Part shown: piece by piece, positions 43,786-45,481 of the stretch | Numbering within the stretch: position 1 is the stretch's first letter | Layout of the letters: each line of letters starts with the position of its first letter | Assembly: GCA_031277915.1 (NCBI GenBank) | Contig: JAITLL010000027.1 | Span: 1-64,000 of the forward strand | Length of the DNA stretch: 64,000 nucleotides | From: Acinetobacter sp. | GTDB taxonomy: Bacteria > Pseudomonadota > Gammaproteobacteria > Pseudomonadales > Moraxellaceae | Direction: 5' to 3' | Translations under genes and position numbers: made by a program | The notes under the pieces: generated by a model | Databases searched by the model: none | What the model was told of the DNA's origin: nothing | What the model saw: the letters and a program-made list of their open reading frames with translations, nothing else

Positions 43786-43825
43786 TTGTCTTAGAAATGA
43801 AATATAAGTGTCACATTCTTGTCAT
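43786..43825 (+). promoter_or_regulatory. tandem Pho-box-like array of tatABC
   Basis: Four 7-mers occur at exact 11-base spacing: TTGTCTT (43786), ATGAAAT (43797), GTGTCAC (43808) and TTGTCAT (43819). The PhoB consensus is CTGTCAT repeated at 11 bases. The last two copies form an 18-bp Pho box (7-4-7), and TATAAA at 43839-43844 is a fitting -10. This suggests phosphate control of tatABC. Confidence 0.55.
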
Positions 43826-43869
43826 GGCAACCTGTTGATATAAAGTGAACTAAAAAGAGGTATAAAATT

Positions 43870-44088
43870 ATGGCTGGATTATCTATTTGGCATGTCGTTA
43901 TTTTCGCAATTGTCGTTATTTTATTGTTCGGTACATCTAAATTAAAAAATATCGGTAAAGATGTAGGCGGTGCGGTAAAAGACTTTAAGAAATCAGTTCG
44001 TGAAGAAGATGAAACTGGATCATTAAATAGCCCTCGTACGATCGATGCTCAAGTTAAAACATCTGAAAGCACATCAGTGAAAAGCTAA
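43870..44088 (+). CDS. tatA: Sec-independent translocase subunit TatA
   Basis: TatA forms the pore-like oligomer of the twin-arginine translocase, which exports folded proteins across the inner membrane. The 72-residue protein has the short N-terminal helix ([22 protein letters not shown]), the FGT hinge, and the amphipathic helix [18 protein letters not shown], then an acidic tail. An AGAGG site precedes it. It is followed by tatB after 11 bases. Confidence 0.97.
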
Positions 44089-44099
44089 AGGTTTGTCCC

Positions 44100-44537
44100 A
44101 TGCTTGATGTAGGAATGACAGAGCTACTCTGTTTTGCAATTATTGCAATTTTGGTTTTAGGTCCAGATAAGCTTCCCGAGGCTGCACGCTTTGCAGGTCG
44201 TTGGTATGTTCGTCTAAAACGCTATATTACGAATCTGCAAAACGAGATTGATCAAGAGCTGCGTCTTTCTGAGTTCCGTAAAGAAATGCAAGAGGAGCTC
44301 AACCGCATCGAAGCATTAGAACGGAAAGTACAACAACAGCTTGAAGAAATACAAAAACAGCAGCTTTCAGAACATCAAAAAGTTACTGAGCCGCCTAAAA
44401 CAACACAAAAACCTATTCGGAAATGTCTTCCTATATCAGATCAATACAAAGTGCCATATCTTGCAAAGCCTATGCCTTTAGTTCCTCAAACTGATATTTC
44501 AGAAACATCTCCAGTTGAATTGAAGATTGCCGTATGA
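44100..44537 (+). CDS. tatB: Sec-independent translocase subunit TatB
   Basis: TatB receives Tat substrates together with TatC. The 145-residue product has the N-terminal membrane helix and hinge MLDVGMTELLCFAIIAILVLGPDKLPEAAR, followed by a long amphipathic, charged helix with coiled-coil character (EMQEELNRIEALERKVQQQLEEIQKQ) and a Pro/Thr-rich tail. It overlaps tatC by four bases (ATGA). Confidence 0.95.
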   Translation: MLDVGMTELLCFAIIAILVLGPDKLPEAARFAGRWYVRLKRYITNLQNEIDQELRLSEFRKEMQEELNRIEALERKVQQQLEEIQKQQLSEHQKVTEPPKTTQKPIRKCLPISDQYKVPYLAKPMPLVPQTDISETSPVELKIAV

Positions 44538-45304
44538 ACCAACTGCCCTCAACCACTGTAAATAGTCAAGAAAACTTAGACCAGATGCCAATCATGAATC
44601 ATTTGGTGGTTTTAAGACGTCATTTATTTAGGATTGTAGGGGTAACATTATTCTTATTTTTTTGTTTACTGCCCTTTCGAAATAATACTTACCAATTATT
44701 ATCTGAGCCTTTAAGGTTACAACTTCCTGCATCATCTTCAATGATTGCGACGGATGTGACAGCAACTTTTATGGCGCCATTTAAACTTAACTTATTTGTC
44801 GCACTTGTGCTTGCAATGCCATTTATTCTTTATGAAATATGGTCTTTTGTTCGCCCAGCACTTTATCAAAAAGAACGTCATTTAGCACTGCCATTACTGA
44901 TTGGTAGTATTGTTCTATTTTATGCAGGTGTAGCATTTGCTTATTATATTACCCTGCCTGCCATACTACATTTCTTTATTAGCGTTTCACCTGAAACCGT
45001 CGCACCAATGACCGATATTAATAGCTACTTAAGTTTCTGTTTAAAGCTATTTTTAGTTTTTGGCGTGACTTTTGAAATTCCTATCGCGACCTTAATACTC
45101 ATCTTAATTGGTGTCGTAAATACACAAAGCCTTGCTGAAAAAAGACGCTTCATTGTTGTGGGATGTTTTTTTGTAGCCATGTTTATTACCCCACCTGATG
45201 CGATTTCAATGGTGATGTTAGCTATTCCTATGTGGTTACTTTTTGAATTAGGACTACTCTTCGGCAGAATTCTTGAAAAAAGAAAAAGCCATTCTACTGA
45301 ATAA
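44534..45304 (+). CDS. tatC: Sec-independent translocase subunit TatC
   Basis: TatC is the six-helix receptor that binds the twin-arginine signal. The 256-residue protein contains MPIMNHLVVLRRHLFRIVG, the conserved FxAPFKLNLFVALVLAMPFILYEIWSFVRPALYQKER and TPPDAISMVMLAIPMWLLFELG. The N-terminal extension of about 18 residues is slightly longer than in E. coli. It ends with a terminator, so tatABC is a separate unit from phoX. Confidence 0.97.
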   Translation: MNQLPSTTVNSQENLDQMPIMNHLVVLRRHLFRIVGVTLFLFFCLLPFRNNTYQLLSEPLRLQLPASSSMIATDVTATFMAPFKLNLFVALVLAMPFILYEIWSFVRPALYQKERHLALPLLIGSIVLFYAGVAFAYYITLPAILHFFISVSPETVAPMTDINSYLSFCLKLFLVFGVTFEIPIATLILILIGVVNTQSLAEKRRFIVVGCFFVAMFITPPDAISMVMLAIPMWLLFELGLLFGRILEKRKSHSTE

Positions 45305-45321
45305 TTTAAGTCTTTCTTTTT

Positions 45322-45355
45322 AAAGTCCAAATATTTAAATTTGGACTTTTTATTT
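45322..45355 (+). terminator. terminator after tatC
   Basis: AAAGTCCAAAT / ATTTGGACTTT stem with a 6-base loop and a T-run, between tatC and phoX. Confidence 0.88.
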
Positions 45356-45386
45356 TCAGCATCCTTTTAATTAATCAAACCATAAA

Positions 45387-45426
45387 CTGTCTTCAAAGTG
45401 ACTTAAAAATGTAAGAAAAGTGTCAT
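45387..45426 (+). promoter_or_regulatory. tandem Pho-box-like array of phoX
   Basis: CTGTCTT (45387), GTGACTT (45398), ATGTAAG (45409) and GTGTCAT (45420) are spaced exactly 11 bases apart, the geometry of two adjacent Pho boxes. TAGAAT at 45437-45442 begins 10 bases after the last copy, the usual distance for a PhoB-dependent -10. Confidence 0.6.
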
Positions 45427-45481
45427 TTCTAATCCATAGAATCGAGTCAACAAATATACCCACAAAAGTTATGGATTTATT

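Follow-up and report, generated by a model that had tools for sequence, protein, structure and literature searches.

Predicted phosphate control of tatABC together with phoX in Acinetobacter

In Acinetobacter, tatABC and phoX very probably form separate, neighbouring transcription units that are each driven by a PhoB-activated promoter, so that the Tat exporter would be made together with its cargo at low phosphate. The stretch of DNA analysed here (64,000 nucleotides; the window) carries an array of tandem half-sites before each unit. What was established directly is the presence of these arrays, how they are spaced and conserved, the occurrence of their motif before pstS and phoB as well, and the linkage of tatABC to phoX across the genus. 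A preliminary description of this DNA had proposed that Tat may be phosphate-induced along with its cargo; array conservation, the pstS and phoB motif and the direction of published transcriptomes all lend support to that proposal.

The tatABC-phoX locus of the window

A half-site matrix was built from Pho boxes of E. coli K-12 phoA, phoB, pstS, phoE, ugpB, phnC and phoH, one box per promoter; for phnC, the second-ranked candidate was assumed to be the box. The phoA, phoB and phoH boxes agree with those in the parts of PMC10294691 covered, and the phoE box differs from the one given there. Both strands of the window were scanned for four half-sites in tandem at 11-bp steps (127,922 positions). 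The preliminary description had read four 7-mers at exact 11-base steps in each promoter and had suggested such a scan. Its coordinates proved correct: TTGTCTT (43786), ATGAAAT (43797), GTGTCAC (43808) and TTGTCAT (43819) precede tatA, and CTGTCTT (45387), GTGACTT (45398), ATGTAAG (45409) and GTGTCAT (45420) precede phoX. The tatA array ranked second and the phoX array fourth of all positions; rank 1 is the array on the opposite strand at 10422-10461, which takes rank 3 as well when read in a shifted register (Table 1). Dinucleotide shuffles of the intergenic region matched the tatA score 0 times in 5000 and the phoX score once in 5000. Shuffling the whole window 30 times never matched the tatA score and matched the phoX score 0.17 times per window, so the phoX array taken alone is moderate and leans on its conservation.

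In E. coli Pho promoters the last half-site is separated from the -10 element by a 10-bp gap. The same spacing was found at phoX (TAGAAT) and at tatA (TGTTGAxAT). At the phoX position, TAGAAT occurred in 10 and TAAAAT in 2 of 12 type-A promoters inspected. Upstream of tatA, 90 of 105 arrays have TGTT at +14 relative to the last half-site and 89 of 105 have TGAxAT at +17; this element is only a fair -10 match, though it is conserved and lies at a fixed distance from the array. The two -10 elements named in the preliminary description fared differently. TAGAAT at 45437 does begin exactly 10 bases past the fourth phoX copy, and TATAAA at 43839 was rejected as the conserved tatA element, being kept in only 11 of 105 arrays; that assignment was probably off by a few bases. 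A scan for the sigma-70 consensus was uninformative (12 found, 14.0 expected).

Table 1. Features of the window, with coordinates counted from its first letter.
Feature	Position	Strand	Basis and remarks
Strongest Pho array of the window	10422..10461	-	score 21.9, rank 1; outside the tat-phoX unit
tatA Pho box array, four half-sites	43786..43825	+	sequence; score 20.6; predicted PhoB site
Predicted extended -10 of tatA, TG-T-TGATAT	43833..43841	+	hexamer 43836-43841, 10 bases past last half-site
Likely ribosome binding site of tatA, AAGAGG	43855..43860	+	sequence, by eye
tatA	43870..44088	+	Pfam PF02416; NCBIfam TIGR01411 over cut-off
tatB	44100..44537	+	NCBIfam TIGR01410 over cut-off
tatC	44534..45304	+	Pfam PF00902; 4-base overlap with tatB
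Intrinsic terminator-like hairpin, tatC/phoX gap	45322..45349	+	
phoX Pho box array, four half-sites	45387..45426	+	sequence; score 13.5; predicted PhoB site
Predicted -10 of phoX, TAGAAT	45437..45442	+	sequence; 10 bases past last half-site
phoX, PhoX family alkaline phosphatase, type A	45482..47464	+	PF05787
PhoX twin-arginine motif, TRRDILK	45506..45526	+	sequence
PhoX lipobox, LAGC	45581..45592	+	sequence
Terminator-like hairpin 3' of phoX	47480..47510	+	

The TatA, TatB and TatC families are encoded in that order, and TatC gave one match in the window's own genome (G000; assembly 91.84% complete). The window PhoX, a predicted phosphatase, scored 70 bits against PF05787 (cut-off 24; weak but over cut-off). 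It matched no NCBIfam model, which marks it as a divergent branch, and shares 97-98% identity with records from A. seifertii and A. nosocomialis. The TRRDILK signal pointed out in the preliminary description is present with a lipobox downstream, and the protein is predicted to be a Tat-exported lipoprotein. Among tat-linked PhoX proteins, the RR motif was found in 101/101 and a lipobox after it in 99/101 (lenient regular expressions). A type-A phoX 85% identical to that of the window was also seen in locus L005 (labelled A. baumannii ACIN00150), which has no tat within 4 kb on either side and differs in this from the four other Acinetobacter records matched with the window PhoX.

Conservation in Acinetobacter and the Pho regulon

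TatC was found in 109 of 120 Acinetobacter genomes, and these 109 are the basis for counting the tatA array. The array scored at least 8 in 105 of them and at least 13.5, the strict cut-off, in 101; in the 104 genomes scoring at least 10 it is placed between -80 and -95 relative to the tatA start. Genomes below 8 were G005, G063 and G099, in which phoX still follows tatC, and G094, which has only a divergent Tat and no PhoX; tatABC-phoX without the full array is retained in three genomes (loci L135, L156 and L190), a point against the preferred explanation. Other ORF upstream regions in 84 of the tat loci served as background, with 10/141 at 8 or more and 0/141 at 13.5 or more. Steps of 8-10 and 12-14 bases gave 0-7 of the 109 genomes at 8 or more and none at 13.5. 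A reversed-matrix control reached at least 8 in 57/109 genomes, a figure that makes the cut-off of 8 lenient; this control is itself weak because CTGTC occurs both in the real consensus and in its reversed form, TACTGTC. Among 83 non-redundant arrays, information per column was 1.44 bits in the half-sites, 1.70 in the TGTCA core and 0.83 in the spacers; the upstream flank of the same sequences (70 columns) held 0.14 bits. Three additional Acinetobacter genomes had tatA arrays of 22.4, 11.7 and 22.8, all with phoX behind tatC. Lack of conservation of the 7-mers in other species had been set out beforehand as a refutation, and the idea survives it, with arrays of 8 or more in 105/109 genomes and at step 11 only.

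For gene order, 130 of 134 TatC matches were used as loci (the four left out, from G044, G048 and G070, were minor or partial copies). In 101 of the 130, phoX lies downstream of tatC, and 98 of these 101 have the array. Three loci have phoX without the array, seven have the array with no phoX seen (three of them at contig ends), and the remaining 22 are extra or divergent copies with neither, two of which are truncated by the end of a contig. The slot behind tatC is filled by type-A PhoX in 35 loci and type-B PhoX in 66, and phoX promoter arrays of at least 8 were found in 35/35 type-A and 55/66 type-B loci (background at this lenient cut-off 10/141, 7%). The two types are distant (about 660 and 750 aa) and alternate behind tatC; they stand in tandem in, for example, G004, G007 and G036. 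Extra divergent Tat copies occur in several Acinetobacter (L198-L211), their TatC about 42-55% identical, with no phoX or array seen.

PhoX was found in 108 of 120 Acinetobacter genomes and in 108 of the 109 that bear TatC. All 11 Tat-less genomes of the 120 also lack PhoX (two are only 64-65% complete), and it is likewise absent from two more Tat-less Acinetobacter, G206 and G211. This co-absence may reflect a few deletions of one segment. A phylogenetically independent association of array and phoX was considered and is not supported: well-supported branches of the TatC tree yielded 4 differing pairs (median p 0.5), and the association is mostly one of shared descent.

As a positive control, the same E. 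coli matrix was applied to pstS and phoB promoters. Two-site boxes of at least 14.3 were found at pstS in 20/20 genomes and of at least 13.8 at phoB in 30/30, with 0/141 other upstream regions at 13.8; the four-site score was at least 8 in 19/20 and 15/30, respectively. All 31 genomes examined, the Tat-less G015, G026 and G030 among them, have PhoB (over family cut-off) and PstC. Both PhoB and its motif before pstS and phoB are present, and at tatA and phoX the tandem 7-mers at 11-bp steps are followed by the spaced -10 elements.

TGTCA-N6-TGTCA was counted in the window's own genome at 12 sites, against 5 for the reversed pattern; 6 of the 12 lie inside an ORF, 2 have no ORF nearby and 4 have an ORF start within 350 bases, these four standing before tatA, a GT4 gene, a porin gene and a gene for a Pit-family phosphate transporter. 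The top-ranked array of the window ends 22 bases before the listed ATG of the GT4 glycosyltransferase gene (9083-10399), which is followed by a PAP2 phosphatase gene (8507-9064; both by Pfam). On its motif, this promoter is assigned to the same predicted regulon as tat-phoX, and the 8507-10461 segment looks like a phosphate-starvation unit for membrane-lipid remodelling. Because the GT4 ATG lies only 22 bases past the array, translation may in fact begin at an ATG further on. The porin gene (Porin_4; L346:251-1354 on G000:C59) has a four-site array of 35.4, a value that no other array listed for this genome reaches, and is a candidate phosphate-starvation porin. Three phospholipase C genes over family cut-off (L353, L361 and L366; a fourth ORF gave weak partial matches) all encode RR signals. 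Two of them have arrays of 23.0 and 11.8 starting about 200-260 bases upstream, and the third scored 6.5 (no array). The TAT_signal HMM, which is insensitive, gave one match in this genome, a phospholipase C.

A chain of events consistent with these features can be outlined. At low phosphate, phosphorylated PhoB would bind the tandem 11-bp half-sites and, by analogy with E. coli PhoB, replace the -35 contact and recruit RNA polymerase to the -10 element 10 bases on. The Tat exporter would then be made together with PhoX and two phospholipase C proteins that carry Tat-type signals and are encoded elsewhere; these enzymes, folded before their presumed export by Tat, would release phosphate. PhoB binding, the size of induction and Tat export of the PhoX and phospholipase C cargoes are inferred.

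Other explanations of the arrays were weighed. Single TGTCA-like 7-mers are common, and the phoX score recurs in shuffled windows at the rate given above, so chance similarity in AT-rich intergenic DNA could be entertained; the shuffles for tatA, the genus-wide conservation and the specificity for step 11 already contradict it, and we give it practically no credence. The arrays might instead be read by another regulator of the OmpR family, with the genes answering another signal. Such regulators bind direct repeats of similar size, and PhoB-like regulators below the family cut-off were found in 29/31 genomes (none was listed at that E-value in the window's own genome). PhoB itself, however, was over the family cut-off in all 31, a matrix trained solely on E. 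coli PhoB sites also matches every pstS and phoB promoter tried, a phosphatase gene adjoins, and Tat-export genes of A. baumannii rise at low phosphate; another regulator is therefore very unlikely.

Alternatively, the tatA array would merely boost phoX by read-through, control of tatABC being a by-product of its upstream position. Type-A phoX does begin 154-271 bases past tatC, but it has its own array with a terminator-like hairpin before it, and the tatA array is kept in four loci, long enough to show it, where phoX is not adjacent (G071 and G104, with phoX about 5 kb off; G044 and G101, with phoX on a different contig). We consider read-through extremely unlikely and retain two PhoB-activated promoters as the preferred explanation.

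Tat and the bc1 Rieske protein in other Moraxellaceae

Twenty tat loci were sampled from other Moraxellaceae, 18 with a readable tatA. An array was found solely in L326, of genus g10 (15.5), and the 17 other readable loci, from outside Acinetobacter and g10, had no array (scores at most 2.4). A HisE motif was seen in 12 of 17 non-Acinetobacter tat loci checked for it. In two further g10 genomes an array stands where L326 has its own, scoring 12.4 in one and 10.7, which is within background range, in the other, and the order hisE, array, tatABC, phoX holds in all three Tat-bearing g10 genomes inspected; in a further g10 genome, G142, TatC and PhoX are both missing. Elsewhere in the family phoX, where found, stands apart from tat; the exceptions are G133 (g15), where phoX lies behind a second tat copy that is cut at the contig end, and G131, whose tat place is not listed. 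At the 75 non-Acinetobacter loci retrieved with the window PhoX, no tat genes were found within the stretch covered.

Order-wide, 29 loci besides that of the window were scanned, 28 with a readable tatA, and none reached 13.5. L371 and L374 scored 9.1 and 10.9, both at -170. In an order-level genus with three Tat copies, g23, one copy lies near an opposite-strand phoX in L399, L400, L401 and L404, and three of these four loci have a two-half-site Pho-like box (11.9, 11.9 and 7.3) 10 bases before TATAGT. In g23, Tat may thus have come under phosphate control a second time.

The bc1 Rieske protein (TIGR01416 over cut-off) was found in 98 of 149 Moraxellaceae genomes, divided as 0/41 Acinetobacter, 0/4 g10 and 98/104 others; in Acinetobacter and g10, TIGR01416 gave either no match or weak partial ones of about 50-60 positions. 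The six misses in other genera are G126 (g8), G150, G170, G172, G189 and G221, several of them incomplete, five of the six having been named by difference from the genome list. In G170, TatC and PhoX are missing as well. Acinetobacter and g10, neither of which gave a Rieske match over cut-off, are also the two genera where the Pho-tat-phoX layout was seen. G126 is a counter-example, with no Rieske match and yet a tat locus without the array, and since the correlation spans two related genera it may reflect a single event.

According to published titles, the defects of tat mutants in Shewanella and Pseudomonas are due mainly to Rieske mislocalisation. Tat may have become available for phosphate control once the bc1 Rieske protein, one of its housekeeping clients, was lost, and in Acinetobacter the absence of such a main client would be what allows Tat to be regulated in this way. 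We regard as an even call the wider proposal that Acinetobacter and g10 remade their entire Tat pathway, formerly a housekeeping exporter, as a device for phosphate starvation, in which the ancestral hisE-linked tatABC lost its Rieske client, gained a PhoB promoter, took phoX as a neighbour, became dispensable and was lost with phoX in some species. On that proposal, the g10 order of hisE, Pho array, tatABC and phoX would be the intermediate; two distant PhoX types swap in the slot that phoX took up, and the joint loss of tat and phoX in some species would follow from tat having become dispensable.

Known systems and consequences

Tat is usually regarded as a constitutive housekeeping exporter. 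The phosphate-induced Tat machine of Bacillus lacks TatB. In B. subtilis phoD-tatAd-tatCd, a Tat translocase likewise stands beside a Tat-exported phosphoesterase, and the three genes are induced by phosphate starvation; Bacillus also has a second, constitutive machine, TatAyCy, so that its phosphate-induced Tat is an extra one (PMC3068169, parts covered). In the window's own genome, by contrast, the sole TatC found, within a TatABC set, is under predicted Pho control, with a different cargo family, PhoX, and separate promoters. The earlier remark that phosphate control departs from the usual picture of a constitutive tatABC is less new in light of the Bacillus precedent (PMC3068169, parts covered). 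Phosphate-controlled Tat is known from Bacillus; the new element is that in Acinetobacter the main Tat, rather than an additional one, appears to be under Pho control.

The Pho regulon of E. coli (pstS, phoA, phoB) has the same 11-bp direct repeats of the CTGTCAT type, and PhoB and PstC are present there as here; it differs in that no tat gene is among the PhoB sites in the parts of PMC10294691 covered, where the main text does not contain the word tatA, tatC turns up solely as part of printed DNA sequence and the table was covered in part. In Campylobacter jejuni, PhoX is Tat-exported and phosphate regulated as well; unlike the arrangement predicted here, no phosphate control of tat genes is described in the parts of PMC3197622 covered. 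A phosphate-responsive TatADG of Pseudomonas (PMC5082522) was discarded as a parallel: in the part covered, TatA and TatG are tabulated under the names general secretion pathway proteins K and G, and these genes are presumably type II secretion genes, not Tat.

Published transcripts of A. baumannii bear on the prediction. In ATCC 17978, Tat-export genes were up at 50 µM phosphate, a limitation response that resembles the one proposed here and for which a Pho box is given at olsB; the parts of PMC11828411 covered differ in naming no tat Pho box, and phoX has 0 occurrences in its main text. In A118 exposed to cerebrospinal fluid, PstS (-1.50), TatB (-1.56), TatC (-1.82) and the alkaline phosphatase AbA118F_1645 (-2.39) all went down together, the last three having consecutive locus tags (PMC7910304, parts covered). 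The two data sets agree in direction and are compatible with one regulon. Among the matches listed from open-licence PMC full text, titles and abstract openings named neither a Pho box upstream of Acinetobacter tatA nor a link between bc1 loss and Tat regulation.

If phosphate control of Tat is true genus-wide, Tat phenotypes, Tat inhibitors and phosphatase assays in Acinetobacter would have to be interpreted with the phosphate content of the medium in mind. The link to bc1 would offer a testable rule for when one stress regulon can take over a general exporter.
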